Positions 8,461-49,589 of a DNA stretch of 64,000 nucleotides are shown here, one piece after another. A program made the translations under genes and the position numbers. The notes under the pieces were generated by a model. The model made no database searches, had not been told where the DNA came from, and saw only the letters and a program-made list of their open reading frames with translations. Positions within the stretch are counted from its first letter, which is position 1; every line of letters begins with the position of its first letter. The DNA is from Actinomycetota bacterium (lineage in GTDB: Bacteria; Actinomycetota; Acidimicrobiia; Acidimicrobiales; Ilumatobacteraceae): NCBI GenBank assembly GCA_963169665.1, contig CAUJET010000113.1:34920-98919 (forward strand), given 5' to 3'.

Positions 8461-8534
8461 CCCACAGGAGTTGCCAGCGACTTCACACCCGCTTCTCACC
8501 ATCCGCACAGGGCTGGCTCTCCATACTCAAGGGC

Positions 8535-10676: not shown

Positions 10677-10894
10677 CGGGTCGAAGCCTGCCACAGCCCG
10701 CCGTCGGCGCCGACCGGATGCCGAGCTGGCCGCCGACCGGCCCGCTGACCGGCGACGGGATCGGCGTCGGCAGGAGTGATTTGGCGCATCACGGCCTACC
10801 CTTTGATGACCGGAATCAACGGCCGGGCGCCCAGCATTCGAGCAGCAGACCAGCGGCTCGCAGCTGAAGCCAGCAGAACCCAGCGAGGTCAACC

Positions 10895-11419
10895 TTGAAG
10901 TTCAAGAAGGGCGAAACCGTCATCTATCCCCAGCACGGTGCATGCATCGTGATGGGCACCAAGAAGATGGAGGCATTCGGTTCCACCCAGGAGTACCTCA
11001 TCCTGCGCACGGTCATCAACGAGATGACCCTGTCGGTTCCCACGCTGAAGGCGGCCGAGGTGGGCGTGCGCCCGCCGGTGTCGAGCGACGAACTCGAAGA
11101 CCTCGTGTCGGTGCTCTCGAAGGCCGACCCGCGCGTGCCCTCCAACTGGAGCCGTCGGTTCAAGAACCACCAGGAGAAGCTGAAGAGCGGCGACGTGTAC
11201 CAGGTGGCCGAAGTGGTCCGGAACCTGGCTGCCCGCAACCGTGACGCGTCGCTGTCGGCCGCCGAGCGCACGATGTACGACCGGGCCCGCATCAACCTGA
11301 TCAGCGAGATCGCCCCGGCGCTCAAGGTCAGCGCCGAGGAAGCCGAGCGCTACCTCGACGAGGCACTCGCGAAGGGCGTGCTGAAGCCCGCCAAGGAAGC
11401 CGCCAAGAAGAAGGCCTGA
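10895..11419 (+). CDS. carD: CarD family transcriptional regulator (TTG start)
   Basis: MKFKKGETVIYPQHGACIVMGTKKMEAFGSTQEYLILRTVINEMTLSVP...NWSRRFKNHQEKLKSGD; strong CarD pattern. Confidence 0.93.
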   Translation: MKFKKGETVIYPQHGACIVMGTKKMEAFGSTQEYLILRTVINEMTLSVPTLKAAEVGVRPPVSSDELEDLVSVLSKADPRVPSNWSRRFKNHQEKLKSGDVYQVAEVVRNLAARNRDASLSAAERTMYDRARINLISEIAPALKVSAEEAERYLDEALAKGVLKPAKEAAKKKA

Positions 11420-11485: not shown

Positions 11486-11815
11486 TCAGTGGCCGTCGGG
11501 TCCCACCTCCTGCAGCCACACCGTCCGCCCGTCGGGGTCGGTGCTCGCCTGCACGAACGTCCCCCAGTGGGTCGCCTCCCACTCGCCCGACATCGCCGTG
11601 TGGTCGGCCACGTCGAGGTACACCTCCACGGTCGGTGCGACGTCTTCGTCGACGCTGTCGACGAAGACGTACGGGCCGGGTGACGGCGGATCGAGCTTGG
11701 CGCTGCCGTGGCCGGTCTCGAAGTCGAGGGTGAAGCCGAGCCGTTGCCAGTACTCGATGGTGGCCGCGTAGTCGGCGGTGGTGACGAGGAGGTGGTGGAT
11801 CCCGGTGACGCCCAT
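11486..11815 (-). CDS. VOC/glyoxalase family protein
   Basis: MGVTGIHHLLVTTADYAATIEYWQRLGFTLDFETGHG... Confidence 0.85.
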   Translation of the reverse strand: MGVTGIHHLLVTTADYAATIEYWQRLGFTLDFETGHGSAKLDPPSPGPYVFVDSVDEDVAPTVEVYLDVADHTAMSGEWEATHWGTFVQASTDPDGRTVWLQEVGPDGH

Positions 11816-11857
11816 GGCGTGCAACGTAGCGGCCGGCACGATCTACAGTCACCGGCC

Positions 11858-25996: not shown

Positions 25997-27211
25997 TCAG
26001 GCGCCGGCGACCGCTGCCAGCGTGTCGACGATGCGGCCGACCTGGTCGTCGGTGATCACGAGCGGCGGGCAGAACGTGAGCGTGTCGGTGTTGATCGCCC
26101 GGCAGATCACGCCGCGGCGGAGCATCTCGTCGCGGATCGTCATCGCGTTCTGGTCGGGGCGGAGGCCGGCCGCCCACATGGCGCCCTCGCCGCGGGTGTG
26201 GTCGATCACGCCGTCGGCCGCGAGCGACCGGAGGCCACCGCTCAGCTGGGCGCCCACGTGCGTGGCGCGCTCGACCAGGCCCTCGCGACGCATGATCGCC
26301 AGGTTGGTGAGTGCGGCAACACAGGCGACCGGGTGACCGGAGTAGGTGAAGCCGTGGCGCAGGAAGAAGTCGGGGTCGCGCTCGAGCGCTGCTCGCGGGC
26401 CGGGGCCGACGAACACGCCGCCGAGCGGCTGGTACCCGGAGGTGACGCCTTTCGCGAACGTGACCAGGTCGGGGCGAACGCCGAAGTGGTGGGCGGCGAA
26501 CCAGCTGCCGAGGCGGCCGTAACCGGTGATGACCTCGTCGAAGATGAGGTAGGCGCCGTGCTGGTCGCACAGCTTGCGCAGCGACTGGAGGTAGCCCTCC
26601 TGAGGCGGGTAGATGCCGGCCGCGCCCTGCACGGGCTCGGTGAGGACGGCCGCGATCGTGTCGCTGTGCTGAGCCATCAACGACGCCAGACCTTCGACGT
26701 CGTCGGCCGGCACCTGCACCACGTCGGCCACGAACGGACCGAAGTTCTCGCGATTCGGGGCGATGCCCTGGGCGCTGGTGCCGCCGTAGTTCACGCCGTG
26801 GTAGCCGCGGGTGCGGGAGATGATGAGCTTGCGCTGGGGCTGGCCCGCCTGCACGTGGGCGATGCGGGCGAGCTTCATGGCGGTGTCGACCGCCTCGGAG
26901 CCCGAGCAGCACAGGAACACGCGGCTGTCGTCCATCGGGGCGATGCCGTGCAACTCGGTCGCCAACTGCTCGGCCGGATCGTTGGTGAACGGGTCGAAAC
27001 AGCTGTACGCGGCGATGACGCGCGCCTGGGCGGAGATCGCGTCGGCGATCTCGTCGCGCCCGTGTCCCACGGCGCAGTACCAGAGGCTCGCCATGCCGTC
27101 GACGAGCTCGTTGCCGTCGCTGTCCCAGACGAGTGCCCCCTCACCCCGCACGATACGGACGAACGACTCCCGGGTGGGCTTGGCGAAGGGATGCAAGAAG
27201 GCTGACGGCAC
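25997..27211 (-). CDS. Class III aminotransferase (omega-aminotransferase-like)
   Basis: VPSAFLHPFAKPTRESFVRIVRGEGALVWDSDGNELVDGMASLWYCAVGHG..., FDEVITGYGRLGSWFAAHHFGVRPDLVTFAKGVTSGYQPLGGV. Confidence 0.93.
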   Translation of the reverse strand: MPSAFLHPFAKPTRESFVRIVRGEGALVWDSDGNELVDGMASLWYCAVGHGRDEIADAISAQARVIAAYSCFDPFTNDPAEQLATELHGIAPMDDSRVFLCCSGSEAVDTAMKLARIAHVQAGQPQRKLIISRTRGYHGVNYGGTSAQGIAPNRENFGPFVADVVQVPADDVEGLASLMAQHSDTIAAVLTEPVQGAAGIYPPQEGYLQSLRKLCDQHGAYLIFDEVITGYGRLGSWFAAHHFGVRPDLVTFAKGVTSGYQPLGGVFVGPGPRAALERDPDFFLRHGFTYSGHPVACVAALTNLAIMRREGLVERATHVGAQLSGGLRSLAADGVIDHTRGEGAMWAAGLRPDQNAMTIRDEMLRRGVICRAINTDTLTFCPPLVITDDQVGRIVDTLAAVAGA

Positions 27212-27250
27212 GGCCCGCGACCGTAGCAAGCGGCGCCTACACTTCTGCTG

Positions 27251-28567
27251 GTGGCGACCCTCACGCGTTCGACGGGCAGGTTCGCGGGCTCGGCGGCCAC
27301 CTGGATCCGGCAGACCGTCGCACTCCGTTCCGCCGACTCGCCCACCAAGCTCCGCCTGGCCATGGTCGTCACCGTGCTCGCTGCGTTGCTGCTGTCGATC
27401 GCCGGCTGGTACTCGATCGACCGGCGCGACACCGCGATCGGCGACGCCGCCCGCGCCGCGGAGCAGTTGATCCAGGTGCAGGACGTGCGGGTGCAGGTCG
27501 TGCAGGCCGACTCGATCGCCTCCAACGCCTACCTCGTGGGTGGTCAGGAAGCGGCCGATCAGCGGGCCGAGTACGACTCGCGCATCGCCGCCGCTGCCGC
27601 CGGTCTGCTGGTGGCCGTCCAGGGCGCGACGAGCGTCGACGCCACGGAGCTCGAATCCGTGAACCAGCGGTTGGCGGTGTACGTCGGCCTCGTCGAGCAG
27701 GCCAGGGCCAACAACCGGCAGGGCTTCCCGGTCGGCGCCGCCTACCAGCGCCAGGCCCGGGCGATCGCCTCGGTGCTGGTCGACTCCCTGCGGACCGTCG
27801 AGCAGAGCACCCGACAGCGCGTCGACGACAGCATGGCCAGGGCACATCGGGCCAGCTGGACGCTGATCGTCGCCGGTCTCCTCGTGCTGGTCGCCCTCGT
27901 CGTCGGGTCGTGGTGGCTGGCGGTGCGCTGGCGCCGGCTCGTGAACGTGCCGCTCGCGATCGCCGGCGTCATCGTCGTGCTCGTCCTCACCGTCGGGCTC
28001 GGCGTGAACGGCCGTGCCGTGTCGAAGGCGGGCGATGCCGTGCGTGGCCCGTTGTCCGCTGCCGATCTGGTGGCGCAGGCGCGCGCTGCAGGTTTCGACG
28101 CGCGGTCGAGCGAGGCACTCACCCTCATCAACCGTGGCAACGGTGCCGCCTACGAGACCGGATGGCAGCTGTCGTCGAGCATCGTCGCCGAAGCGCTCCT
28201 CCGGTCGTGCGACAGCTACGGGGTCGGCTGTGGTGCGGTGCTGTCGTACGAGGCCTACGCCGACAGCCACGCCATGGTTCGCTCGCTCGACGACGCCGGC
28301 GACTGGGATCGAGCCGTCGAACTCGCCACGGCGGGCAGCCTCGATGCCCTCGTGCAGCAGTCGGGCTCGAATCCGCCCGCCGACTTCGACGCGTTCGCCG
28401 TGGCGTCCAGCGACGAACTCGTCGAGCAGTCGACGACCGCGTCGCAGGCCTTCGACGACGCCGACGCCCAACTCCTCGTCCTCCGGTGGATCGTGGTGGC
28501 GGCAGGGCTGGCGATCGCTGCGCTCGCCTTCACCGGCTACGAGCGACGACTTCGGGAGTACCGATGA
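27251..28567 (+). CDS. GlnX-like transmembrane sensor protein
   Basis: Several TM segments flanking helical extracytoplasmic regions (IRQTVALRSADSPTKLRLAMVVTVLAALLLSIAGWYSIDRRDTAI...VQADSIASNAYLVGG); identity supported by the adjacent GlnH-like and PknG-like genes. Confidence 0.75.
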   Translation: MATLTRSTGRFAGSAATWIRQTVALRSADSPTKLRLAMVVTVLAALLLSIAGWYSIDRRDTAIGDAARAAEQLIQVQDVRVQVVQADSIASNAYLVGGQEAADQRAEYDSRIAAAAAGLLVAVQGATSVDATELESVNQRLAVYVGLVEQARANNRQGFPVGAAYQRQARAIASVLVDSLRTVEQSTRQRVDDSMARAHRASWTLIVAGLLVLVALVVGSWWLAVRWRRLVNVPLAIAGVIVVLVLTVGLGVNGRAVSKAGDAVRGPLSAADLVAQARAAGFDARSSEALTLINRGNGAAYETGWQLSSSIVAEALLRSCDSYGVGCGAVLSYEAYADSHAMVRSLDDAGDWDRAVELATAGSLDALVQQSGSNPPADFDAFAVASSDELVEQSTTASQAFDDADAQLLVLRWIVVAAGLAIAALAFTGYERRLREYR

Positions 28568-29580
28568 ACGCACGCACACGAGGTCGGAGGTGGCCCGCCG
28601 CTGTCTGCGCGTTGGGCATGGTCGTCGGCGCCGCCTGTTCCGGCGACGCCACGCTGCCCGACGAGGTTGCCGGCTCGATCGCCGAGGCGACCACCACGCC
28701 GACCACCGCCGCGCCGGCCTGCCCCGACCCGTCTGCGTACGCGTCGATGACCTACGAGCCGCTCGAGGTCCTTCCCGAACCGGGTGACATGCCCGACGGC
28801 ACCACGATGGCGGAGATCCAGGACCGTGGCCAGCTCGTGGTGGGCGTCTCGGCCGACACGTTGCTGTTCGGCTCGCGCAACCCGCTCAACGGCGACATCG
28901 AGGGCTTCGACATCGACGTCCTGAAGACCGTCGCCCGCGCGATCTTCGGCGACGGCGGCGAGGAACGCATCGTCTACAAGGTGATCACCTACGCCCAGCG
29001 GCTCCCGTCGCTCGAGGCGGGCGACGTCGACATCGTGGCGCACACGATGACGATCAACTGCAACCGCTGGCTGCGCATCGCGTTCTCGTCCGTCTACTAC
29101 CAAGCCGGCCAGAAGGTGCTGGTGAAGGACAAGGAGCGGTTCCCCGACGTGTTCGCCCTGCGCGACGCCGGCGCCCGAGTGTGTGCGCCCGAGGGCAGCA
29201 CCAACATCGACGAGATCAGCAAGGCCGAGTACGCCGGGGTGATCGTGGTGCCGAAGCCCGACATCAGCGACTGCCTGGTCGCGATGCAGCAGGGCCAGGC
29301 CGACGCCACCACCGGGGACGACACGGTGCTCGCCGGCTTCGCCGCGCAGGACCCGAGCACCGAGCTCGTCGGTGACGCGTTCACCCAGGAGCCCTACGGC
29401 CTCGGCATGAACCTCGACGATTCCGATCTCGTGCAGTTCGTCAACGCCGTGCTCGACCAGGCCCGCGCCGACGGCACGCTCGAGCAGATCGCCCGCACCT
29501 GGCTGGTCGACACCGGGGCTCTCGACGCGGAGGACGTGCCGCCCGTGCCCGAACCCGACTACACGAGGGCGTTGCCGTGA
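28564..29580 (+). CDS. GlnH-like amino-acid-binding lipoprotein (family 3 solute-binding protein)
   Basis: Lipobox-like GMVVGAACSG; IQDRGQLVVGVSADTLLFGSRNPLNGDIEGFDIDVLKTVARAIFG...; no ABC permease/ATPase nearby. ATGA overlap with the preceding gene. Confidence 0.88.
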   Translation: MNARTRGRRWPAAVCALGMVVGAACSGDATLPDEVAGSIAEATTTPTTAAPACPDPSAYASMTYEPLEVLPEPGDMPDGTTMAEIQDRGQLVVGVSADTLLFGSRNPLNGDIEGFDIDVLKTVARAIFGDGGEERIVYKVITYAQRLPSLEAGDVDIVAHTMTINCNRWLRIAFSSVYYQAGQKVLVKDKERFPDVFALRDAGARVCAPEGSTNIDEISKAEYAGVIVVPKPDISDCLVAMQQGQADATTGDDTVLAGFAAQDPSTELVGDAFTQEPYGLGMNLDDSDLVQFVNAVLDQARADGTLEQIARTWLVDTGALDAEDVPPVPEPDYTRALP

Positions 29581-30710
29581 GTGCACGCCGCGGCGCACGG
29601 GCCGATCTCCCCGCCGTGCTGGCGCAGTGGGACGAGTGGCTGTCGACGGCCACCGACCGCCTGATGAGCCTGGACGAGCGCGTCACCGCAGTGGGCGACG
29701 ATCTCCCCGACCACGCTCGGGCCTCGCTGGACGTCGCTGCGGCGTTCCTGTGCCGCAAGGCGATCGGCACCCGCGTCGACGCGATCCGTGCAGACCCCGG
29801 ACAGGCCGTGGCGCTCAGCGCCCAGCCGGTCACCGACGACCACGGCGCCGCAGTCGCCGCCGACCTCAGCACCGCTGCCGCGCTGCTGGGCGGGATCCTC
29901 GACCGCGTGGAGACGGCCGTCGTCGGGGCCGAATCGGCGCATGCCACCCTCGCCACCGACCGCACCGCGGCCGGCGCCGATCTCGCGGTCGCGGAACGAC
30001 TCGCCGGCGAGCTCGGTCACTACGTACAGCGCTGCGCCGCCGCCCGGGCCCGCGCCGACGCCGCCGGACGTGCACCCGGGGAATGGCGTGCGCTCGCCGT
30101 CGAGGCGGCGGCGCTGCGGATCGAGCTCGAACGCATCGACGGGGTGCGGCGTACGTCTTTCGAGCGCTGGCGAGCGCTCCCGACGACGCTCGAGGCGCTG
30201 CGCACGCGGGAAGCCGAGGTGCGCGACACGGTCGAGAGCGTCCGGTCGAAGGTCGAACCCGTGCCGGTGCTCGCGGTGCCGTCGGTCGACGCTCTCGGCG
30301 CGGTCCGGCCCGTCGAGGAACTCGAGGCGATGCCGTGGCCAGCGGCGCGGGTCGCGATGGAGCCGTTCCTGCTGCGGGTCGACCGGCTGGGTGCCGCGTT
30401 CGACGAGGTCGCCACACGGTTCAGCGCGGTCCTGGAACGCCGCAACGAACTGCGCGGCCTGCTGCACGCCTTCCGCGACAAGGCCGGTGGGTCGGGTCTC
30501 GCTGAAGACGCGACGCTCGAGCCGCTGCTGCGCGCCGCCGAGCAAGAGCTCTGGTCGGCGCCGTGCAACGTCGACGCTGCTGCCGAGCTCGTGCAGTCGT
30601 ACACCGATGCGGTGAACGCGGCGATCGTCGCACGCACGCCGGCGGCGGGATCGGTCGGCGGCTTCGGCCGGAGCCGCGATGGCCGCGACGGCAGAGGGGG
30701 AGGACGCTGA
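29577..30710 (+). CDS. Uncharacterised Ala/Arg-rich, predominantly helical protein
   Basis: GTGA overlap with GlnH-like gene; MSARRGARADLPAVLAQWDEWLSTATDRLMSLDERVTAVGDDLPDHARASLDVAAAFLCRKAIGTRV...; no family recognised. Confidence 0.8.
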   Translation: MSARRGARADLPAVLAQWDEWLSTATDRLMSLDERVTAVGDDLPDHARASLDVAAAFLCRKAIGTRVDAIRADPGQAVALSAQPVTDDHGAAVAADLSTAAALLGGILDRVETAVVGAESAHATLATDRTAAGADLAVAERLAGELGHYVQRCAAARARADAAGRAPGEWRALAVEAAALRIELERIDGVRRTSFERWRALPTTLEALRTREAEVRDTVESVRSKVEPVPVLAVPSVDALGAVRPVEELEAMPWPAARVAMEPFLLRVDRLGAAFDEVATRFSAVLERRNELRGLLHAFRDKAGGSGLAEDATLEPLLRAAEQELWSAPCNVDAAAELVQSYTDAVNAAIVARTPAAGSVGGFGRSRDGRDGRGGGR

Positions 30711-32983
30711 TGCGCTGTGCCCAGCCCGGATGCACCGGCACGGTCGTCGACGGCTACTGCGACGTCTGCGGCATGGCAGCGGCGAGTTCGCCGAGTCCGT
30801 CTGCTGCTGGTGGCGGGAGTGGTGGTGCCGCGGCATCGACCCCACCCGCCGCCTCCGGCTCACCCGCAGGCCCGGCGTCCACGCGGTCGAGTGCCGTGTC
30901 GTCGCGGGTCAGTACCGTCACCAACCGGCTCGGCCAGGTGCCGCTCGGCTCGGCGCGCAGCGTCAGCGGGAGTCGGCCCACGCGCCGTCTCGGCAGCAGG
31001 GCCGGTGCGTCACGTCTCGGCGCCGGGCTGATCGAGATCCCGTCGGTGCCGATCCTCGATCCGCGCCAGGCGCTCATGGATCCGCCCGCCGTCGCCGAGG
31101 ACAAGCGGTTCTGCTCGGTGTGCCAGGCGCCGGTCGGCCGCGCTCGCGACGGGTCGCCCGGGCGCACGAAGGGGTTCTGTCCGAAGTGCCGGACCCCATT
31201 CGACTTCGACCCCAAGCTGTCGCCCGGCACGTTGCTCGGCGGCCAGTACGAGATCGTCGGCTGCCTCGCCCACGGTGGCATGGGCTGGATCTACCTCGCC
31301 CGCGACCGCAACGTGAACGACCGCTGGGTCGTGGTGAAGGGCCTGTTGAACGCGGGCGACCCCGATGCGTTCCGGGCGGCCGTGGCGGAGAAGCAGTTCC
31401 TCGCCGAGGTCGAGCATCCGATCATCGTCGAGATCTACAACTTCGTCGCCGCGCCCGACGGCGCCTCGTACATCATCATGGAGTACGTCGGCGGCCAGTC
31501 GCTCAACAACCTGTTGAAGAGCAGGATGAAGGAGCAGGGCGGTCGCTTCTCGCCGATCCCGGTCGACCAGGCGCTGGCCTACGCGATCGAGGTGCTGCCG
31601 GCCTTTTCATACCTACACGGCCTGGGGCTGCTGTACTGCGACTTCAAGCCCGCCAACGTGATCCAGGTGGGCGACGGCATCAAGCTGATCGACCTCGGCG
31701 GCGTGCGGCGCATCGACGACGACGTGTCACCGATCTACGGCACCGTGGGGTTCCAGGCGCCCGAGGTGCCCTCGGCGGGCACGTCGATCCCGAGCGACAT
31801 CTACACGATCGCGCGCACCATCGCGGTCCTGGTGTTCGAGTTCCGCGGCTACCAGAACCAGTTCGCCGACGCGCTGCCGTCGCCCGACGACGTGCCGTTG
31901 TTCGCCGAGCACGATTCGCTGTACCGGCTGCTGCTGCGTGCGACGGCGCCGCGACCGGAGGACCGCTTCCAGAGCGCCGAGGAGATGCGACTGCAGCTGC
32001 TGGGCGTGCTCCGCGAGGTGACCGCAGCGTCGGCCGGTGCGGTCACCCGGAGCATCCCGTCGACGGTGTTCGAGACGCCGACGGTGGCGGGCGACCGGCT
32101 CGACTGGAACGACCTGCCGCGCCTGCTGCCCGATCCCGATGATGCCAACGCGACCTGGCTGCAGGCGATCACCACCGACGACCCGCTGCAGCGTCGCGAC
32201 CTGCTGGCGAGTGCGCCGACGTCGTCGCCGATGGTCTCGTTGGAGCGGGCGTACGCGTCGCTGGCGCTCGGTGACGCAGCCGCCGCGTGGGCTGCAGCCG
32301 ACGAGGTGCTGGCAGCCGATCCGTGGGACTGGCGTGGTGTGTGGATGCAGGGTCTGGTCGCGCTGTTCAACGGCCATCCGGGCGATGCGGTCGGCGCGTT
32401 CAACACGGTCTACGGCACACTGCCGGGCGAGCTCGCGCCGAAGCTGGCACTGGCGCGGGCATGCGAGTTGTCGGGCGACCTCGACGTGGCCGACCGCCTC
32501 TACGGCGTGTGCGCTCGTACCGACGCGGCCTACGTGGCGCCGGCGCTGTTCGGCCGGGCGCGTGTCGCGTCGGCGGCAGAACGGACGACGGATGCACTCG
32601 CCGCGCTCGACCAGATCCCGGCCACCAGCCGAGCCTTCGGCGAGTCGCGGCGCAAGCGGGCGATGCTGTTGGCGACGGTGCCCGACGAACGTCGGACGCT
32701 GCAGACCCTCGACGCCGCTGCCGGCGAGCTCGCCCAGGCGACGATCGAGCCACGCGAGCGTGCATCGCTGCGTATCGACATCCTCGCCGCAGCGCTCGCC
32801 GAGGTGCTCGAGGGTGGACCGGTGTCCGGCGCGCTGGTGGGAGGCATCCCGGCCACGGAGGCCGACCTGCGGACCGGGCTCGAGACCGCGTATCGGGAGG
32901 CGGCCTCGCTCGAACCCGATCGGCAGCGACGCGTCGAACTCGTCGACCAGGCCAACCGCGTCCGCATGCGGACGCTCACGTGA
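30710..32983 (+). CDS. PknG-like serine/threonine protein kinase (N-terminal zinc ribbon, rubredoxin-like CxxC pair, kinase, TPR-like)
   Basis: MRCAQPGCTGTVVDGYCDVCGMA; FCSVCQAPVG...KGFCPKCRTPFDF; CLAHGGMGWIYLARDRNVNDRWVVVKGLL; LLYCDFKPANVIQVGDGIKLIDLGGVRRIDD...YGTVGFQAPEV; C-terminal TPR-like repeats. Confidence 0.93.
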   Translation: MRCAQPGCTGTVVDGYCDVCGMAAASSPSPSAAGGGSGGAAASTPPAASGSPAGPASTRSSAVSSRVSTVTNRLGQVPLGSARSVSGSRPTRRLGSRAGASRLGAGLIEIPSVPILDPRQALMDPPAVAEDKRFCSVCQAPVGRARDGSPGRTKGFCPKCRTPFDFDPKLSPGTLLGGQYEIVGCLAHGGMGWIYLARDRNVNDRWVVVKGLLNAGDPDAFRAAVAEKQFLAEVEHPIIVEIYNFVAAPDGASYIIMEYVGGQSLNNLLKSRMKEQGGRFSPIPVDQALAYAIEVLPAFSYLHGLGLLYCDFKPANVIQVGDGIKLIDLGGVRRIDDDVSPIYGTVGFQAPEVPSAGTSIPSDIYTIARTIAVLVFEFRGYQNQFADALPSPDDVPLFAEHDSLYRLLLRATAPRPEDRFQSAEEMRLQLLGVLREVTAASAGAVTRSIPSTVFETPTVAGDRLDWNDLPRLLPDPDDANATWLQAITTDDPLQRRDLLASAPTSSPMVSLERAYASLALGDAAAAWAAADEVLAADPWDWRGVWMQGLVALFNGHPGDAVGAFNTVYGTLPGELAPKLALARACELSGDLDVADRLYGVCARTDAAYVAPALFGRARVASAAERTTDALAALDQIPATSRAFGESRRKRAMLLATVPDERRTLQTLDAAAGELAQATIEPRERASLRIDILAAALAEVLEGGPVSGALVGGIPATEADLRTGLETAYREAASLEPDRQRRVELVDQANRVRMRTLT

Positions 32984-34185
32984 CCTGTCCACACTGCGGC
33001 GAAACGATCGCCGCGGGCGACGTGTTCTGCGAGGCGTGCGGCACCGATCTCGGCGCGCTCGCCGGCACCGCCGCCGCGCCGGTACCGGTCGGCGTCGATG
33101 ACGCCCACGACGACGCGATCACCGCGCCGTCGCCGGCGCCGTCACCCGTGACGCCGGAGCAGCCGCGCACCCACCTCCTGCAGCCCGGCGGCGGTTCGGG
33201 CGTCGACACCTCGCTGCCGTGCGCTGCGTGTGGCGCTGAGGTCGCCGACGACGGCTTCTGCACGGTCTGCGGTCATCGGGCTCGCACCCGGCGCGAGCAC
33301 TGGACCGAGACGCACGGTCGTGCCGGCGCGCCGGCGATCGGCGCGGTGTGCGACAAGGGCATCTCACACGCTCGCAACGAGGACGCGATGGCCACGGCAC
33401 TGACGCCTTCGGGGCTCGCGGTCGTCGTCGTGTGCGACGGCGTGACCACGGCACCCGACAGCGACCGGGCGAGTCTCGCCGCTTCTGCGTCGGCGCGCGA
33501 CGTGCTGGCCGCCGCACCCGTGACGACGGGCGCGTTCGCCGCGCGGCTCAGCGCCTGGGAACCGGTGCTCGCCGCGTCGTGCCGAGCGGCGAACGCCGAG
33601 GCGGTCGCGATCGCCCGCACGCTCGGCGACCCACCGGAGCCGCCGTCGTGCACGTTCGTCGCCGCAGTCGTCGAGGCCGACCTGATCGCGATCGCCTGGT
33701 GCGGCGATTCCCGCGCCTATTGGCTGCCCGACGATGCAGGCAGTGCAGGCAGTGCAGGCAGTGACGGCGGTGACGGCAGCGCCGGCGGTGACGGCGAGCA
33801 GCTGACGCTCGACCACTCGCTCGGCACCGAGATGATCCGCAGCGGCATGAGCCGCGAGCAGGCCGAGGCCGATCCCACCTGTCACACGATCACCCGATGG
33901 CTCGGCGCCGACTCCGTCGATCCGACTCCCGAGTTCCGTGCGTTGCGGGTGGAGCGGGCGGGATGGTTGCTCGTGTGCAGCGACGGGATGTGGAACTACG
34001 CGTCGGGCGCGTCCGATCTCGCGGCCCTCGTCGCTCGGGCCGTCGGCGACGGTGCCGACACACCGACCGCGATCGCCGAATCGCTGGCGGCGTTCGCCAA
34101 CGCGCAGGGCGGACACGACAACATCACGGTGGCCCTCGTCCGCTGCGAACCGCCCAGGCCGGGCACCCCACTCACGACGACCTGA
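32980..34185 (+). CDS. PP2C-type serine/threonine phosphatase with two N-terminal zinc ribbons
   Basis: VTCPHCGETIAAGDVFCEACGTDLG and LPCAACGAEVADDGFCTVCGHRA; SHARNEDAMATA, VVVVCDGVTT, IAWCGDSRAYWLP, LLVCSDGMWNY, GGHDNITVALV. Confidence 0.92.
   Translation: MTCPHCGETIAAGDVFCEACGTDLGALAGTAAAPVPVGVDDAHDDAITAPSPAPSPVTPEQPRTHLLQPGGGSGVDTSLPCAACGAEVADDGFCTVCGHRARTRREHWTETHGRAGAPAIGAVCDKGISHARNEDAMATALTPSGLAVVVVCDGVTTAPDSDRASLAASASARDVLAAAPVTTGAFAARLSAWEPVLAASCRAANAEAVAIARTLGDPPEPPSCTFVAAVVEADLIAIAWCGDSRAYWLPDDAGSAGSAGSDGGDGSAGGDGEQLTLDHSLGTEMIRSGMSREQAEADPTCHTITRWLGADSVDPTPEFRALRVERAGWLLVCSDGMWNYASGASDLAALVARAVGDGADTPTAIAESLAAFANAQGGHDNITVALVRCEPPRPGTPLTTT
33736..33795 (+). repeat. 9-bp minisatellite-like repeat inside the PP2C gene
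   Basis: gcaggcagt x3, then gacggcggt, gacggcagc, gccggcggt, gacggc; encodes the (A/D/G)G(S/G) linker between DSRAYWLPDD and EQLTLDHSLG. Confidence 0.85.
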
Positions 34186-34232
34186 CCGATTACCCTGAGC
34201 GTCCAGCACGCCGTCCCCGAAGGGAGCAGCAC

Positions 34233-35513
34233 GTGGCCGAATTCCGCGCCGAGGTCTTCCAGAACGAGTACCTGAGCGACGGTGCCACCGACGTGCACGG
34301 CGTCGTGTCGGTGACATGCACGGGTGCTGGCGTCGCCGGACAGGCGAGCGGGACCGAGGCGGCGGAGGTCATCATCGTCGACACGTCCGGGTCGATGGAC
34401 ATGCCGCCGGCGAAGATCGCCGCGGCGCGTCGAGCGGCGAAGGTCGCCATCGAGGAGATCGTCGACGGCACCTGGTTCGCCGTGATGTCCGGTCACACCG
34501 TCGCCCAGATGGTGTACCCCCCGCATCCCGGTCTCGCGAAGATGACCGACGTCACCCGACGCGACGCGGTCGAGGCCGTCGGCCGCCTCCGCAGCGGCGG
34601 TGCGACCGCGATCGGTGCCTGGATCGCGGCTGCCACCGAGCTGTTCCAACAGGCGCCCGCCGGCCAGCGGCATGCGATCCTGCTCACCGACGGCAAGATC
34701 GAGGGCGAGCCCGACGGTGCGCTCGAGGCCGCGCTGGTGAATGCACGCGGGAAGTTCCAGTGCGACTGCCGTGGCATCGGCAGCGACTGGGTGGTGGAGG
34801 AACTGCGCACGATCGCCACCGCACTGCTGGGCACCGTCGACATCGTCGCCGAGCCGGCCGACCTCGAGGCCGACTTCGAGGAGATGATGCGCAACGCGAT
34901 GAGCCGCGGTGTCGCCGACGCCCGGTTGCGGGTGTGGGCGCCGCAGGGGAGTGAGGTGCTCTTCGTCCGCCAGGTGGCGCCGCAGGTCGACGACCTCACC
35001 TCGCGCGCCACCCGCATCAGCCCGCTCGTGGTGGAGTTCCCGACCGGGGCGTGGAGCGACGAGTCGCGCGACTACCACGTGGCGGTACGAGTGCCGCCGG
35101 CGCCGGTGGGCAACGAACGGCTCGCTGCCCGGGTCGAGGTGGTGATCGATGACCAGGTGGTGGCCAAGGGACTCGTGAAGGCCATCTGGAGCGTCGACAC
35201 GAACCTCACCACTCGCATCGATCCCGCCGTCGCGCACTACACCGGACAGGCACAACTGGCCGACGTCATCCAGCGCGGCCTGGCCGCGAAGGCATCGGGC
35301 GACGAGCGCACCGCCACCGTCCTGCTCGGGGAGGCGGCCAAGCTCGCCCACGACAGCGGCAACGAGGACACGACCAGGTTGCTGAACAAGGTCGTCGACG
35401 TGGTCGACGTGGAGGCCGGCACGGTCAGGCTCAAACAGCAGGTGGCCAAGAGCGACGAGATGGCGCTCGACACCCGCAGCACGAAGACCACACGCATCAG
35501 GCGAGAGCCGTGA
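34233..35513 (+). CDS. von Willebrand factor A (VWA) domain protein
   Basis: VAEFRAEVFQNEYLSDGATDVHGVVSVT..., MIDAS-type VIIVDTSGSMDMPPAKIAAARRA, GGATAIGAWIAAA, LLTDGKIEG. Confidence 0.9.
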   Translation: MAEFRAEVFQNEYLSDGATDVHGVVSVTCTGAGVAGQASGTEAAEVIIVDTSGSMDMPPAKIAAARRAAKVAIEEIVDGTWFAVMSGHTVAQMVYPPHPGLAKMTDVTRRDAVEAVGRLRSGGATAIGAWIAAATELFQQAPAGQRHAILLTDGKIEGEPDGALEAALVNARGKFQCDCRGIGSDWVVEELRTIATALLGTVDIVAEPADLEADFEEMMRNAMSRGVADARLRVWAPQGSEVLFVRQVAPQVDDLTSRATRISPLVVEFPTGAWSDESRDYHVAVRVPPAPVGNERLAARVEVVIDDQVVAKGLVKAIWSVDTNLTTRIDPAVAHYTGQAQLADVIQRGLAAKASGDERTATVLLGEAAKLAHDSGNEDTTRLLNKVVDVVDVEAGTVRLKQQVAKSDEMALDTRSTKTTRIRREP

Positions 35514-36280
35514 GCGCCACCGCCGGCACCTGTCCCAACGGCCACGCCTCGGGCGACGCCGAGTGGTGCGACACCTGCGGCGCGCCGATGGGCGGGCCGA
35601 GCGCCGCAGCATCGGCCGCGGCCACCCCGCCGACGCCGCCCGCACCGTTCACGTCGACCGACACGTCGGGTCCGGCGATCGCGCCGGTGTCGTGCCCGCA
35701 CTGCGGTTCCATGAACGCGGCCGACAACCTGTTCTGCGAGTCGTGCGGCTACGACTTCACGACCGGCCAGGTGCCCGAGCCGATCGTCGGGGCGACGGTC
35801 GCGGCAGCCGACCCGTCGGGTGCATCCGGCACCGCCGACCCAGCCGTCGAACCGGCGGGCGGCCCGACGCCCGCGACCACCGCACCCGGCTGGGTGGTGA
35901 TCGTCGAGGTCGATCCGGTGTGGCACGCGATCAAGGGTGAGCTCGCCGATCGCCCCTTGCCCGATCCGAGCACCAGCACCGTGCCGCTGTTCCAGCACGC
36001 GTCGTTGATCGGTCGCACCAGCCAGTCGCGAGGGTTGCGCCCCGAGGTCGCGCTCGACACCGACACGGCCGTGTCACGACGTCACGCGCAACTGCTCGTG
36101 GAGGGTGACAAGCTCAGCGTCGTCGACCTGTCGTCGACCAACGGTACCTATGTCATCGACCAGGGGCAGACGCCGACCGAGGATGTGATCCCACTCGCGT
36201 CCGGTGTGCCCGCGGTGCTCGACGACGGGGATCAGATCTTCGTCGGCGCCTGGTCGCGGCTCACCGTCCGCCGCACCTGA
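35510..36280 (+). CDS. FHA domain protein with two N-terminal zinc ribbons
   Basis: CPNGHASGDAEWCDTCG and CPHCGSMNAADNLFCESCG; FHA core SLIGRTSQSRGLRPEVALDTDTAVSRRHAQLLVEGDKLSVVDLSSTNGTYV. GTGA overlap with VWA gene. Confidence 0.92.
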   Translation: MSATAGTCPNGHASGDAEWCDTCGAPMGGPSAAASAAATPPTPPAPFTSTDTSGPAIAPVSCPHCGSMNAADNLFCESCGYDFTTGQVPEPIVGATVAAADPSGASGTADPAVEPAGGPTPATTAPGWVVIVEVDPVWHAIKGELADRPLPDPSTSTVPLFQHASLIGRTSQSRGLRPEVALDTDTAVSRRHAQLLVEGDKLSVVDLSSTNGTYVIDQGQTPTEDVIPLASGVPAVLDDGDQIFVGAWSRLTVRRT

Positions 36281-36310
36281 CCCGAGCGCCCGCCAGGCGC
36301 GGGAGGTGCG

Positions 36311-37696
36311 TCAGACACCGTCGAAGTTGAGCAGCGCGTTCTCCACCACTTCACCGAGGGCCGGGTGGATGTAGTACTGCCCGCGGGCCATCTCGTCGAT
36401 CGTCGCGTCGTAGCGCATGCCCTGGATGAGCTGCTGGATGAGGCTCGACGCGTGGGGGCCGATGATGTGTGCGCCGATGAGGCGGCGCGTGGCTCGATCG
36501 GCGAGCAGCTTGCAGAAGCTCGTGGTGTCCTCGAGCGCCCAGCCGTAGGCGACGTCGCTGTAGCGCTGGACGGCCACCATCACGTCGATGCCGGCGATGC
36601 GCGCTTCGTGCTCGGTGAGGCCGACGCTCGCGATCTGCGGGTTGGTGAACACGGCGTGGGGCACCGCCCGGTAATCGTTGGTGCGCAGCACGTCGGGGCC
36701 GACGATGTTGTGGGCGACGGTCTTGGCCTCGTGGTTGGCGACGTGCTTCAACTGGTAGGGCGAGCTGATGTCGCCCAGCGCCCACACGCCCGGCACCGAC
36801 GTGGCGCCGGTCTCGTCGACCACGATGCGGCCGTCGGGATGCAGCGCAAGGCCCCCCGCGGTGGCGTCGATGCTGTCGCTGTTGGGCACGCGGCCAGTGG
36901 CCACCAGGATGTGCGTGCCCTCGAGCACGCTGCCGTCGCGCAGGGTGAGGTGCACCTTGTCGCCGTGGCGCTCGACCCGGTCGACCGCGGTGCCGAGACG
37001 GAGGTCGAAGCGCTTGGCGAACGCGGCGGTGATCGCCTCGCTGATGTCGTGGTCCTCGGCCCGCAGCAGGTGTTGGCCGCGCTGCACGATCGTGACGCGA
37101 GCGCCGTACGAACCGAACACGTGCGCCAGTTCGCAGGCGATGAACCCGCCGCCGAGCACGATGAGGTGTTCGGGCACCTCGTCGACGCGCATGATGTCGT
37201 CGCTCGTGAGGTAGCCGACCTCGGCGAGGCCGGGGATGTCGGGGATCATCGGACGGGCGCCGGCGGCGATCACGATCTGGTTCGCCTCGATGCGGCGGAC
37301 GCCGGTGGGCGTGGTGACCTCCATGCGGCGTTCGCCGACGAAGCGGCCGCGGCCTGCGTGCACGGTGATGTTGGGGCACTCGTGGGTGCGGTACTTCTCA
37401 CCGCCGGCGGCGATCGGGTCGATGCGGCCGAACACCCGGTCGCGGATGTCGAGCCAGCGCACACCGTCGACGTGGGCGTCGACGCCGAGGTGGGCGGCGT
37501 GCTGCACGGTCTGCACGATGTCGGCGGCGTGGACGAACATCTTCGTGGGGATGCAGCCACGGTTGAGGCAGGTGCCGCCGAAGACCCATTCCTCCACCAT
37601 CGCGATCTTCCAGTCGTCGAGCGCCGGGGAGACGATCGAGTTGCCGCTGCCGGCGCCGAGGATGATCAGGTCGTAGTGCTCGAAATCGTCGCTCAT
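36311..37696 (-). CDS. mtr: Mycothione reductase
   Basis: FEHYDLIILGAGSGNSIVSPALDDWKIAMVEEWVFGGTCLNRGCIPTKMFVHAAD (redox GGTCLNRGCIPTKM), TGRVPNSD, ALGDISSPYQLKHVANHE. Confidence 0.92.
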   Translation of the reverse strand: MSDDFEHYDLIILGAGSGNSIVSPALDDWKIAMVEEWVFGGTCLNRGCIPTKMFVHAADIVQTVQHAAHLGVDAHVDGVRWLDIRDRVFGRIDPIAAGGEKYRTHECPNITVHAGRGRFVGERRMEVTTPTGVRRIEANQIVIAAGARPMIPDIPGLAEVGYLTSDDIMRVDEVPEHLIVLGGGFIACELAHVFGSYGARVTIVQRGQHLLRAEDHDISEAITAAFAKRFDLRLGTAVDRVERHGDKVHLTLRDGSVLEGTHILVATGRVPNSDSIDATAGGLALHPDGRIVVDETGATSVPGVWALGDISSPYQLKHVANHEAKTVAHNIVGPDVLRTNDYRAVPHAVFTNPQIASVGLTEHEARIAGIDVMVAVQRYSDVAYGWALEDTTSFCKLLADRATRRLIGAHIIGPHASSLIQQLIQGMRYDATIDEMARGQYYIHPALGEVVENALLNFDGV

Positions 37697-37704
37697 ACGA
37701 GCGG

Positions 37705-38385
37705 TCACGGTACCCGGACGGGTGGCTCCGAGGTCACGGCGGCCCACATCGCCTCGTCCGGTGCGGCGAGCATCGCCCGATACACGGGCTCGGGGTAGCC
37801 GAGGTGTGGGCCGGGGGCGTCGATGCCGGGCTGGGCGACCGGGGAGTCGGGGCGTTGATAGGCGGCTGGCCGCAGGTATCGCTGCAGCTCGTCGTCGGAG
37901 ATACCGGCGAGCGCCTGCACCTCGGGGTCGATCCAGGCGCGTTCGTCGATGCCGCCTCCGGTGGCGACCTCGAGCGCGAGCCCCTCGGGGCCGGCGAAGT
38001 ACATGCTCTGGCACATGCCGTGGTTCATCGGCCCCATCACCGGCACACCCCGGTCGCGGAGGCGGTCGCGCAGGGCGAGCAGATCCTCGAGGGTGTCGAC
38101 GTTGAAGGCGAGGTGTTGCATCGTGCCGGCGGTGACCTGGCCGCCCGCCGTGCCGGCGTGGGTGATGCCGATGGTGCCGTCGGCGGGGTTGTCGGGGTGC
38201 TGCTGGAACGCCACGTAGCAGTCGTCGCTCAGCTCGACGAAGCCGTGAAAGGTGTTCGCCACGCCGTGCATCCAGTACAGCGCCTTCAGTTCGCCGCCGA
38301 GGCAGTCGGTGAAGAACTCGATCTGGCGCTTGATGTCGCGCGTCGCGATCGCGATGTGGTGGATGCCGTTGGGGTGCAGTGCCAT
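37705..38385 (-). CDS. VOC family protein (extradiol dioxygenase/glyoxalase-like)
   Basis: MALHPNGIHHIAIATRDIKRQIEFFTDCLGGELKALYWMHGVANTFHGFVELSDDCYVAFQ... Confidence 0.85.
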   Translation of the reverse strand: MALHPNGIHHIAIATRDIKRQIEFFTDCLGGELKALYWMHGVANTFHGFVELSDDCYVAFQQHPDNPADGTIGITHAGTAGGQVTAGTMQHLAFNVDTLEDLLALRDRLRDRGVPVMGPMNHGMCQSMYFAGPEGLALEVATGGGIDERAWIDPEVQALAGISDDELQRYLRPAAYQRPDSPVAQPGIDAPGPHLGYPEPVYRAMLAAPDEAMWAAVTSEPPVRVP

Positions 38386-45678: not shown

Positions 45679-45912
45679 ATGTCGGAAGTCGAACTGGTCA
45701 TCCACACCGTCCCGCACGAGGGTGAACCCCCCGCCGTCGATGGCACCGAACTCCCACCGCGCCGCTTCGCGACGGTCGCCGAGGCCAAGGCGGCAGCCGA
45801 CGAGCTGCCGGTGCCCGACGGGTGGCAGCGCAAGGAGTCGATCCGGGACGTGCTCACCGGCGACGTCATGTGCTGGCGCAGCGATCGAGTTCCGGGATGG
45901 CAGCAGCCATGA
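45679..45912 (+). CDS. Small hypothetical protein (77 aa)
   Basis: MSEVELVIHTVPHEGEPPAVDGTELPPRRFATVAEAKAAADELPVPDGWQRKESIRDVLTGDVMCWRSDRVPGWQQP; overlaps the nifJ start. Confidence 0.6.
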   Translation: MSEVELVIHTVPHEGEPPAVDGTELPPRRFATVAEAKAAADELPVPDGWQRKESIRDVLTGDVMCWRSDRVPGWQQP

Positions 45913-48900
45913 CCACGCACGGATCGGAGGACACCAGCACCCCGGTGGCCAGTCCGGGGGCCGGCTCGCACGAGCCGGCCTCGGGCACCACGGCCGACCA
46001 CCACATCCTCGACGGCAACGAGGCCGCCGCACGCATCGCCCACCTGATGAGCGAGGTGATCGCGATCTACCCGATCACGCCCGCCTCGCCGATGGGCGAG
46101 TTCGCCGACGACTGGAGCGCTCGCGGGCACCAGAACCTGTGGGGTGTGGTGCCCGAGGTGATCGAGATGCAGAGCGAGGCGGGTGCCGCCGGCGCGCTGC
46201 ACGGCGCCGTCACCCGCGGGGCGCTCGCCACCACATTCACGGCGAGCCAGGGCCTGCTGCTCATGCTGCCGAACATGTTCAAGATCGCCGGTGAGCTCAC
46301 CCCGGCAGTGATCCACGTCGCGGCACGCACGATCGCCACGCACGCGCTCAGCATCTTCGGCGACCACAGCGACGTGATGGCCGCCCGCACCACGGGATGG
46401 GCGATGCTCTGCGCCAGCTCCGTGCAGGAGACCGGCGACTTCGCCGCGGTTGCGCACGCCGCGACGCTCGCGACAAGGGTGCCGTACCTGCACTTCTTCG
46501 ACGGCTTCCGCACGAGCCACGAGCTGAACACCGTCGAGCTCGTCAGCGCCGAGCAGCTCCGCGAGATGGTGGACGAGCGGCTCGTGAGTGAGTTCCGCGA
46601 CCGGGGTCTCGACAGCGATCACCCGGTGATCCGGGGTACCGCGCAGAACCCCGACGTGTTCTTCCAGGCGCGCGAGGCGTGCAACCCGTTCCACGATGCA
46701 GTGCCCGCGGCGACGCAGGCCGCGTTCGACCAGCTCGCCGCGCTCACGGGTCGGCAGTACCACCTCGTCGACTACCACGGCGCGCCCGACGCCGATCGTG
46801 TGATCGTGCTGATGGGCAGCGGTGCCGGGGCCGTGCAGGAGGCGGTCGATGCCATGAACGCCGCCGGCGAGCGCGTCGGCCTCGCGGTCGTGCGCCTGTA
46901 CCGGCCGTTCCCCACCGCACAGCTCCTCGCTGCGCTGCCGCCCAGCGTGCGCACCATCGCGGTGCTCGACCGGACGAAGGAGCCGGGCGCGCCGTTCGAG
47001 CCGCTGCACCTCGACGTGCTGTCGGCGCTGTGGCACTCGGCCGACGAGCACTGGGCGGGTGGCGTCACGCCTCGCGTGATCGGTGGCCGCTACGGCCTGA
47101 GCTCGAAGGAGTTCACGCCGGCGATGGCCAAGGCCGTGTTCGACGAGGCGTCGGCCGACATGCCGCGCAACGGATTCACGGTCGGCATCGTCGACGACGT
47201 CACGCGGCTCAGCCTGGCCGTCGACCCGAGCTTCACGACCGATCACGCGAAGGTGCGCGCCGTGTTCTACGGGCTCGGCAGCGACGGCACCGTCGGTGCG
47301 AACAAGAACACCGCCAAGATCGTCGGCGACCAGACCGCCCTGCACGTGCAGGGCTACTTCGTCTACGACTCGAAGAAGTCGGGCTCCACCACGATCAGCC
47401 ACCTGCGGTTCGACCCGAACCCGATCGCCAGCACGTATCTGGTCGATCAGGCCACCTTCGTCGGGGTCCACCAGTGGAACTTCCTCCAGCGGCTCGACGT
47501 GCTGAAGGTCGCCGCTCCCGGTGCCGTGGTGCTGCTCAACAGCCCGCACCGTCCCGAGGACGTGTGGGGTGCACTCCCCGAGAGCGCACAGCAGCAGGTG
47601 CTCGATCGAGGCCTCCAGCTGTACACGATCGACGCCGCGGCGGTCGCCAAGGCCGCCGGCCTCGCCGGGCGCGTGAACACCGTGATGCAGACGTGCTTCT
47701 TCGCCCTGTCGGGGGTGCTCCCCACCGAGCAGGCGATCGCGGCCCTGAAAGAGGCGATCGAGCACAGCTACGGCAAGCGGGGTGTGGTGATCGTCGAACG
47801 CAACGTCGCTGCGGTCGACACCACGCTCGCCAACCTCCATCAGGTCCCGATCGGGACCGCCGCCGACAGCGGCGTCCACGTCCGGGCGACCGTGCCGGCG
47901 GGCAGCAGCGACTTCGTGCAGCGGGTGACCGCCAGGATGCTGGCGGGGGAGGGCGACCTGCTGCCCGTGAGCGCGCTGCCGCCCGACGGCACGTTCCCCA
48001 CCGGCACGGCGAAGGTGGAGCGACGCACGATCGCGACCGAGATCCCGATCTGGGAACCCGACCTGTGCATCGACTGCGGCAAGTGTGCGATCGTCTGCCC
48101 GCACGCCGCGATCCGGTTGAAGGTGTACGAGCCGGCTGCGCTCGCCGAGGGCAGCGTGTTGAAGACGAAGTCGTTCCGCAGCCGCGAGGTGCCCGGTTTG
48201 TCGTTGACGGTGCAGGTGGCGCCCGACGACTGCACCGGTTGCGGGCTGTGTGTCACGGCCTGTCCGGCGCACGACAAGAGCGAGGTGAAGCGCAAGAGCA
48301 TCAACCTCCGCCCGATCGGTGACCACCTCGAGGTGGAGCGGATCGCGTGGGACGCGTTCCTCGCGACCGAGAGCGCGGACGCCACGGCGTTCGACCCGGC
48401 GTCGGTGAAGACGAGCCAGCTGCGCCAGCCGCTGTTCGAGTTCAGCGGTGCGTGCTCGGGCTGTGGCGAGACGCCGTACCTGAAGCTGCTCACCCAGCTC
48501 TTCGGCGACCGGCTGCTCATCGCCAACGCCACCGGATGTTCGAGCATCTACGGCGGCAACCTGCCCACCACCCCGTACAGCACCGATGCCGACGGCCGTG
48601 GGCCGGCGTGGAGCAACAGCCTGTTCGAGGACAACGCGGAGTTCGGGCTCGGCATCAGGTTGGGGTACGAGGCTCAGCGCAGAGCGGCCCTCGAAGCCCT
48701 CGACCGTCTGGCCGGCCGGATCGATCCGACACTCGCCGCGGCCATCGTCGAACACGTCGACGACACCGACGATCACGGGGTCCGCGACCAGCGCAACCGG
48801 GTCGCGTCGCTGCAGTCGGCGCTCGCCGCGCTCGACGTCGACGACGCCGAAGCCGCTCGTCTGCACGAGCTGGCGGGCGCGCTCGTCGGCCGTGCGGTGT

Positions 48901-49589
48901 GGATCGTCGGTGGTGACGGATGGGCGTACGACATCGGTGCCGGTGGGCTCGACCACGTGATGGGCAGCGGCCGCAACGTGAACATCCTCGTGATGGACAC
49001 CGAGGTCTACTCCAACACCGGTGGCCAGGCGTCGAAGGCGACACCTCGTGGCGCGGTGGCGAAGTTCGCGGCGAGCGGCAAGGGCATCGCCAAGAAGGAC
49101 CTCGGCCTCGAGGCGATGAGCTTCGGCGACGTGTACGTGGCCAAGATCGCCCTCGGCGCAAGCGACGTGCAGACGGTGAAGGCGCTGCTCGAAGCGGCCG
49201 CCTGGCCGGGGGTGTCGCTCGTGATCGCCTACTCGAGCTGCATCGCCCACGGCTACGACATGTCGCGGTCGATGACCCAGCAGAAGGCCGCCGTGCAGAG
49301 CGGACACTGGCCGCTCTACCGCTACCGGCCGGGGGCGGGGGAGACCACCCACCCGTTCGAGCTCGACAGCGCCGAGCCGTCGGTGCCCTATGCCGAGTTC
49401 GCCCGGGCAGAGGCCCGTTTCGGCATCCTCAGTCGTACGGATCCGGAACGCTCGGCAGAGCTCTTGCGGCTCGCCCAGAACGACGTCACCGGCCGGTGGA
49501 ACTACTACCAGCAGCTGGCCGGCGTCGAGCGCCAGGCACCCGAACACGCGGCGAGCGCTGTGCTCGCCGAGACCGAGGAGGAGTCGTGA
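45909..49589 (+). CDS. nifJ: Pyruvate:ferredoxin (flavodoxin) oxidoreductase
   Basis: IYPITPASPMGEFADDW, two 4Fe-4S motifs CIDCGKCAIVCP and CTGCGLCVTACP, CSGCGETPYLKLLTQLFGDRLLIANATGCSSIYGGNLPTTPY, TEVYSNTGGQASKATP. Confidence 0.95.
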   Translation: MTTHGSEDTSTPVASPGAGSHEPASGTTADHHILDGNEAAARIAHLMSEVIAIYPITPASPMGEFADDWSARGHQNLWGVVPEVIEMQSEAGAAGALHGAVTRGALATTFTASQGLLLMLPNMFKIAGELTPAVIHVAARTIATHALSIFGDHSDVMAARTTGWAMLCASSVQETGDFAAVAHAATLATRVPYLHFFDGFRTSHELNTVELVSAEQLREMVDERLVSEFRDRGLDSDHPVIRGTAQNPDVFFQAREACNPFHDAVPAATQAAFDQLAALTGRQYHLVDYHGAPDADRVIVLMGSGAGAVQEAVDAMNAAGERVGLAVVRLYRPFPTAQLLAALPPSVRTIAVLDRTKEPGAPFEPLHLDVLSALWHSADEHWAGGVTPRVIGGRYGLSSKEFTPAMAKAVFDEASADMPRNGFTVGIVDDVTRLSLAVDPSFTTDHAKVRAVFYGLGSDGTVGANKNTAKIVGDQTALHVQGYFVYDSKKSGSTTISHLRFDPNPIASTYLVDQATFVGVHQWNFLQRLDVLKVAAPGAVVLLNSPHRPEDVWGALPESAQQQVLDRGLQLYTIDAAAVAKAAGLAGRVNTVMQTCFFALSGVLPTEQAIAALKEAIEHSYGKRGVVIVERNVAAVDTTLANLHQVPIGTAADSGVHVRATVPAGSSDFVQRVTARMLAGEGDLLPVSALPPDGTFPTGTAKVERRTIATEIPIWEPDLCIDCGKCAIVCPHAAIRLKVYEPAALAEGSVLKTKSFRSREVPGLSLTVQVAPDDCTGCGLCVTACPAHDKSEVKRKSINLRPIGDHLEVERIAWDAFLATESADATAFDPASVKTSQLRQPLFEFSGACSGCGETPYLKLLTQLFGDRLLIANATGCSSIYGGNLPTTPYSTDADGRGPAWSNSLFEDNAEFGLGIRLGYEAQRRAALEALDRLAGRIDPTLAAAIVEHVDDTDDHGVRDQRNRVASLQSALAALDVDDAEAARLHELAGALVGRAVWIVGGDGWAYDIGAGGLDHVMGSGRNVNILVMDTEVYSNTGGQASKATPRGAVAKFAASGKGIAKKDLGLEAMSFGDVYVAKIALGASDVQTVKALLEAAAWPGVSLVIAYSSCIAHGYDMSRSMTQQKAAVQSGHWPLYRYRPGAGETTHPFELDSAEPSVPYAEFARAEARFGILSRTDPERSAELLRLAQNDVTGRWNYYQQLAGVERQAPEHAASAVLAETEEES

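Follow-up and report, generated by a model that had tools for sequence, protein, structure and literature searches.

A seven-gene PknG operon with a phosphatase and a VWA-FHA pair as a candidate reversible amino-acid-sensing phosphosignalling unit

Introduction

PknG, well known as a drug target and as a regulator of metabolism, has to our knowledge been studied almost solely in mycobacteria and corynebacteria. In Mycobacterium and Corynebacterium, a three-gene glnX-glnH-pknG operon has been described (PMC6069109, PMC8546545, PMC9769921). We analysed a 64,000-nucleotide stretch of contig CAUJET010000113.1 (the window) from an Ilumatobacteraceae genome, in which a larger operon encodes, in order, a GlnX-like membrane protein, a GlnH-like binding lipoprotein, an all-helical protein that we call HEL, a PknG-type kinase, a PP2C-type phosphatase, a VWA protein and an FHA protein. 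The three described components are the same, in the same order and with the same kinase architecture; GlnH is most like that of Mycobacterium tuberculosis, and the rubredoxin domain of PknG is as in Mycobacterium. The window's operon differs in adding HEL, PP2C, VWA and FHA, and in the zinc-ribbon-like motif at the N-terminus of its PknG. Our proposal, which we hold with moderate confidence, is that the operon is a complete, reversible amino-acid-sensing phosphosignalling unit, with the VWA-FHA pair, which resembles archaeal ArnB-ArnA, giving PknG an output additional to GarA/OdhI.

Two further described systems bear on this comparison. In Sulfolobus, the C-terminus of ArnB, whose VWA domain is joined to a beta-sandwich and a helical C-terminal domain, is a phosphorylation target of the kinase ArnC; ArnA, a zinc-finger/FHA protein, binds it, and PP2A removes the phosphate, the whole switch responding to nutrients (PMC6509490, PMC7472852, PMC12852372). 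The structure of the ArnA-ArnB complex is 8S05 (PMC12852372). The actinobacterial sets linked to a GAP1-N2 GTPase (PMC7159879) also bring a kinase, a PP2C and a stand-alone vWA together; as described, they are GTPase-centred conflict systems, with no TPR, GlnX, GlnH or FHA mentioned, which sets them apart from the operon of the window.

Results

The VWA-FHA pair

Sequence comparison, structure prediction and gene neighbourhood give the pair an ArnB-like fold, an ArnA-like domain combination and an invariant C-terminal tail. Compared with the PDB, the VWA family profile gave a full-length match to 4FX5 (E 9e-173) and a weaker one to 8s05_A (E 1.3e-5). Modelled by AlphaFold (mean predicted local distance difference test score, pLDDT, 84.5), the VWA protein of the window had 4FX5 as its best fold match at a template modelling (TM) score of 0.91, followed by two ArnB chains of 8S05 (TM 0.65-0.73) and the ArnB paralogue vWA2. 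By this fold search the protein is tripartite, and the D/S/S/T/D residues of its metal-ion-dependent adhesion site are intact in 101 of 101 sequences. The family profile of the FHA protein matched both GarA (6i2q) and ArnA (5a8i, 8s05_C); an N-terminal zinc motif precedes the FHA domain, whose phosphothreonine-binding residues G168, R169, S189 and N211 are present in 83/83 sequences.

The pair is therefore best read, by analogy, as a bacterial counterpart of ArnB-ArnA. In both VWA proteins the VWA domain is accompanied by a beta-sandwich and by a helical domain at the C-terminus with threonine motifs ([LS]IETT in ArnB, L[DE]TxST in the window), both have a partner with an N-terminal zinc motif and an FHA domain, and kinase/phosphatase control and nutrient input would be common to the two systems. 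They differ in that identity in the fold alignment is only about 15%, that the phosphatase is PP2A in the archaeon and PP2C in the window's operon, and that the window's pair is built into a PknG sensor operon. The closer relative, 4FX5, is a full-length homologue with 47% identity in the fold alignment and a similar tail. We located its gene, from Catenulispora acidiphila, by 100% identity in one of our genomes (G599), inside an operon with the same seven genes in the same order. It is an orphan structure, and the papers that we located gave no function for it; the C. acidiphila protein has been listed as a structural relative of ArnB, such relatives being held mostly not to be phospho-controlled (PMC12852372).

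The C-terminal tail of the VWA protein

At its C-terminus the VWA protein reads DEMALDT[A/R/S]STKT[T/V]R[V/I], or by a looser consensus DEMxL[DE]TxSTKTxR. This tail is the most conserved 14-residue stretch of the protein (93% conservation compared with a mean of 70%, rank 1 of 412), with L412, S416, T417 and T419 invariant among 101 sequences; in one VWA protein (L107:12907-14565) it is duplicated. The pattern [DE]TxSTx[ST], which supports a phosphosite without proving it because it was defined after both the VWA and GarA sequences had been viewed, has 97 matches in 102 VWA gene calls, compared with 2 among 617,480 residues from other proteins; these two lie in the N-terminal regions of extended-type PknGs. 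It also falls at the phosphosite segment of Streptomyces-type GarA in all five sequences (5/5), so that in sequence the VWA tail resembles the GarA phosphosite. In the AlphaFold model, residues 406-415 form a short helix (pLDDT about 76-80); the threonine motifs of ArnB also sit in a helix pair, which is rearranged on phosphorylation (PMC12852372).

These data also bear on a different assignment of roles, in which the FHA protein would itself be the effector, phosphorylated by PknG or recruited directly through its autophosphorylated N-terminal residues in the manner of GarA, while the VWA protein would be a scaffold or chaperone. A phosphorylated N-terminus through which PknG recruits FHA substrates has been described (PMC8546545), the phosphothreonine-binding residues are invariant, and two extended-type PknGs carry the tail-like motif in just that region. 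We nevertheless consider this assignment unlikely: no conserved GarA-like threonine motif was seen in the FHA alignment, in contrast to the nearly invariant VWA tail, and in the ArnAB precedent the VWA partner is the substrate.

Kinase, phosphatase and HEL

The PknG of the window carries PF16919 (PknG_rubred), PF00069 (Pkinase) and PF16918 (PknG_TPR) in one chain, all above cut-off, and its best PDB match, over most of its length, is M. tuberculosis PknG (2pzi, E 1.6e-134). Its N-terminal motif reads CxxPGC...GYCDxCG. The catalytic residues (the K, D, K, N and DxG positions) are conserved in 92/92 sequences, and the catalytic and metal-binding Asp residues of the PP2C in 96/96, which bears out a built-in phosphatase. 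Among 198 genomes of the window's order, the 22 that bear PknG all have GlnX as well (Fisher p 2.6e-28); in the sole genome with GlnX and no PknG match, the contig ends inside pknG.

PknG-like genes were also seen in other surroundings. Second pknG copies in two Nocardia-like genomes (L048 in G390, L051 in G242) are without glnX and glnH, and their neighbour resembles an amino-acid permease gene. In Streptomyces-like genomes, second, distant PknG-like kinases (L054:4781-10662, L053:8165-12962) lie beside a lipoprotein resembling a solute-binding protein; the former locus also has a VWA protein without the STKT tail, ending in a zinc ribbon.

HEL is a new conserved component. It matched no Pfam or NCBIfam family and neither a sequence nor a fold in the PDB, and a search for hydrophobic segments of membrane-spanning strength found none. 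Its AlphaFold model is wholly helical (mean pLDDT 93.2). After one hidden Markov model (HMM) iteration, HEL was found in 88 loci, with one copy each; in extended operons it always lies immediately upstream of pknG. Since it sits between sensor and kinase and is absent where the operon is short, the simplest guess is that HEL is an adaptor between GlnX and PknG, a role that we regard as probable from its position.

The sensor end

The GlnX protein narrowly passed the subfamily model NF058618 (251.7 bits, cut-off 250) and stayed far below the cut-off of the kinase-G-activating equivalog NF041460 (74.3 bits, cut-off 780), a difference from the mycobacterial and corynebacterial system. Its hydrophobic segments lie at about residues 30-57, 198-228, 227-258 and 404-431. 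For the GlnH pocket, the ligand contacts of M. tuberculosis GlnH served as reference (PMC6069109). Ligand residues R147, T162, R169 and D250 are kept; S164 is Thr, as in most relatives, K161 is His, and W232, most often His in relatives, is Ile. Of the three contacts with the Asp side chain, R147, T162 and W232, only the third is thus lost compared with mycobacterial and corynebacterial GlnH. The pocket suggests that the ligand is likely an acidic amino acid, its exact identity being uncertain because of Ile at position 232.

Modularity is seen at the sensor end; HEL, PknG, PP2C, VWA and FHA, the effector block, remain together. Ten loci of the window's order (L098-L101, L103-L105, L108-L110; in L098 at 7526-11381) have, behind the GlnX-type gene, genes for a PotD-like (polyamine-type) binding protein and a pyridoxal-phosphate-dependent decarboxylase instead of glnH; these may sense an amine made by the adjacent decarboxylase. 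The PknG block adjoins in most of these loci. The locus with the duplicated tail (L107:5649-15455) is a PknG operon whose binding protein is of a third kind, NMT1/THI5-like by a weak match. In five loci (L091-L095), a glnX-glnH pair lies separate from pknG. That such pairs belong to a different system was considered and rejected, as pknG is found elsewhere in the same genomes.

GarA and OdhI

The sequence-only reading had offered the FHA protein as a candidate GarA-type effector brought into the operon. This identification fails: the protein scores 29.5 bits with the OdhI/GarA model NF041660 (cut-off 200) and lacks an ETTS motif, and the genome has a GarA elsewhere, on another contig (L057:1477-1968, contig G000:C69), which at 142 bits is itself below that curated cut-off. 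The latter gene lies between gcvH and a gene for a MerR-type regulator, surroundings that we take to be the usual garA neighbourhood. Its product has an N-terminal zinc ribbon, as Streptomyces-type GarA also does, and a degenerate phosphosite (DQTITLAKV).

A separate GarA was present in 20/20 genomes tested, and the window's genome encodes an OdhA-type 2-oxoglutarate dehydrogenase; a classical GarA target could therefore exist outside the operon. The operon might then mainly serve GarA/OdhI, whose known upstream parts are GlnX, GlnH and PknG, and PP2C, VWA, FHA and HEL would have accessory regulatory roles, such as in the turnover or localisation of PknG, with no second output. The phosphosite sequences argue otherwise. 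The GarA site is ETTSVFR in Mycobacteriales-type and ETTSTIS in Streptomyces-type genomes, and in relatives of the window it is degenerate (TTVTF, TTSTI, TITLA or none); the GarA proteins of the closest genomes lack ETTSVFR, and several lack a clear TT motif. The extra genes, moreover, are a co-inherited block that includes the ArnAB-like pair. We judge it decidedly unlikely that the operon mainly serves GarA/OdhI.

Distribution and origin

By gene calls, all seven genes occur in 69 of our loci, the gene caller missing GlnX and setting some starts downstream. Each neighbouring gene pair was measured in 72-94 loci, on the same strand in all cases but one and nearly always adjacent. The order is the same in Streptomyces-like genomes (f63) and in further genomes from the order or class of the window. 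With the VWA alignment as query, named GTDB contigs yielded at least 584 relatives. The 80 loci retained have the operon nearly throughout; among them are Nocardioides, Cellulomonas, Cellulosimicrobium, Kribbella, Kineosporia, Promicromonospora, Agreia, Rathayibacter, Janibacter, Propionibacteriaceae and others. Most apparent differences in order among these loci arise because stop-to-stop frames, not gene starts, were sorted. In the Streptomyces-containing order, 286/294 genomes had a VWA match, a few of them weak.

Mycobacteriales-type genomes (f68) have glnX-glnH-pknG alone, with no HEL between glnH and pknG, and no VWA_3_C protein was found in the three of them tested (the labels of f63 and f68 are inferred from PknG type and family scores). 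The seven-gene form is the usual one outside Mycobacteriales, and in this sample the three-gene form is restricted to that group; to call the operon "expanded" is misleading. The arrangement is far beyond chance and recurs in dozens of distant genomes. A local novelty of the window's genome was rejected as an explanation, since the order recurs across families. That the extra genes are mere neighbours, functionally unconnected to PknG, is hardly credible to us: order, overlaps and same-strand adjacency are fixed across many families, and VWA_3_C has a single copy per genome, always within the operon, in the genomes checked.

PknG was not found in other members of the window's family, and in the VWA tree the window groups with Actinomycetes-type sequences (100/94), not with other members of its own order. 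The operon was likely acquired horizontally, a reading that is not firm because the named tree rows were picked for similarity to the window. One locus (L045 in G457) looks like a decaying operon, with fragments of GlnX and GlnH, PknG nearly gone, the VWA gene split in two, and HEL, PP2C and FHA open.

Gene layout

The identities of the components, their intact active and binding residues and the order of the operon come from the same three kinds of evidence as the VWA-FHA pair; boundaries in the window were checked by translation, and the proteins compared with Pfam and NCBIfam profiles (Table 1). As the sequence-only reading had claimed, inspection of positions 26100-36600 shows seven genes in this order on the plus strand, at 27251-36280, and profile matches together with the best PDB matches, to M. 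tuberculosis GlnH and PknG, bear out the assignments of GlnX, GlnH and PknG. The neighbourhood conserved in relatives supports the predicted single operon-like unit, and favours VWA and HEL as putative extra parts of the pathway. The junctions along the operon are -4, -4, -1, -4, +47 and -4 bp. Five overlaps, by 1-4 bases, are thus real as claimed, with the correction that HEL and PknG share 1 base, not 3; PP2C-VWA is the sole junction without overlap, a 47-base gap, the VWA gene starting with GTG at 34233 (the mechanical frame start, 33897, is too long). The left neighbour is divergent and the right neighbour, a mycothione reductase gene, convergent; the seven-gene unit is therefore self-contained.

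Table 1. Components of the seven-gene operon and their positions in the window
Feature	Position	Strand	Basis or remark
GlnX-family transmembrane transducer (438 amino acids, four hydrophobic segments)	27251..28567	+	NF058618, E 1.4e-74
GlnH-like solute-binding lipoprotein (338 amino acids)	28564..29580	+	SBP_bac_3; M. tuberculosis GlnH 6h1u, E 1e-52
HEL, conserved all-helical protein (377 amino acids), no known fold matched	29577..30710	+	own HMM; AlphaFold
PknG-type Ser/Thr kinase (757 amino acids): Zn-ribbon-like motif, rubredoxin, kinase, TPR	30710..32983	+	Pfam; 2pzi
PP2C-type phosphatase with two N-terminal zinc ribbons (401 amino acids)	32980..34185	+	PP2C_2, Zn_Ribbon_1, DZR
VWA protein, 4FX5/ArnB architecture (426 amino acids)	34233..35513	+	VWA_3 + VWA_3_C
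Conserved VWA C-terminal tail DEMALDTRSTKTTR, codons of residues 408-421	35454..35495	+	proposed phosphorylation/FHA-docking site
Zn-ribbon + FHA protein (256 amino acids), not GarA	35510..36280	+	FHA, DZR

Elsewhere in the window lie genes for a glutamine-synthetase-like protein (11708-13234, +), the mycothione reductase (36311-37747, -), a single-chain pyruvate:ferredoxin oxidoreductase (45909-49589, +) and a large aminotransferase fusion protein (NF004799; 55618-58692, +).

Discussion

Based on our findings, we propose a scheme for signalling by the operon, in which we infer the ligand, HEL's function as an adaptor and every step of phosphotransfer and binding. The GlnH lipoprotein and the GlnX protein with its four transmembrane segments would report an extracellular amino acid, probably an acidic one, to PknG. 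PknG, probably aided by HEL as adaptor, would phosphorylate the threonine-rich C-terminal tail of the VWA protein, and the zinc-ribbon FHA protein would bind the phosphorylated tail; the PP2C phosphatase would reset it. The VWA-FHA pair may in this way act like ArnB-ArnA and give PknG a further output besides the GarA/OdhI encoded elsewhere.

Several observations weigh against this scheme. The sequence likeness between VWA and ArnB is weak and covers the VWA domain only, and the ArnAB authors hold that this architecture is mostly not for multi-phosphorylation (PMC12852372). Within the tail, Thr 414 appears as Val in some lineages, and the tail pattern was chosen with both sequences in view; because AlphaFold gives a short helix there, the tail may be structural rather than regulatory. 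At the sensor end, W232 of the GlnH pocket is by alignment not conserved, and the adaptor role of HEL is read from position.

While the GlnX-GlnH-PknG part is known, a PknG pathway with a reversible VWA-FHA module would be new, its mechanism being in our view somewhat better than an even prospect. In the open-access literature, we found no paper on PP2C, VWA or FHA in pknG operons, or on ArnAB-like proteins linked to PknG. A broader generalisation can be offered tentatively, on the doubtful side of even: most actinobacteria outside Mycobacteriales might use PknG chiefly for an ArnAB-like VWA-FHA switch, with an interchangeable sensor cassette (GlnH, PotD-like or other) and with HEL as a new class of kinase adaptor, and the mycobacterial pathway might be a reduced special case.

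In the larger operon PknG has a phosphatase of its own, together with candidates for a substrate, a reader and an adaptor, and this makes the missing step from GlnX to PknG, as well as possible outputs of PknG in antibiotic producers such as Streptomyces, directly testable. The orphan structure 4FX5 thereby gains a context, and an archaeal phospho-switch would be linked to a bacterial nutrient-sensing kinase.

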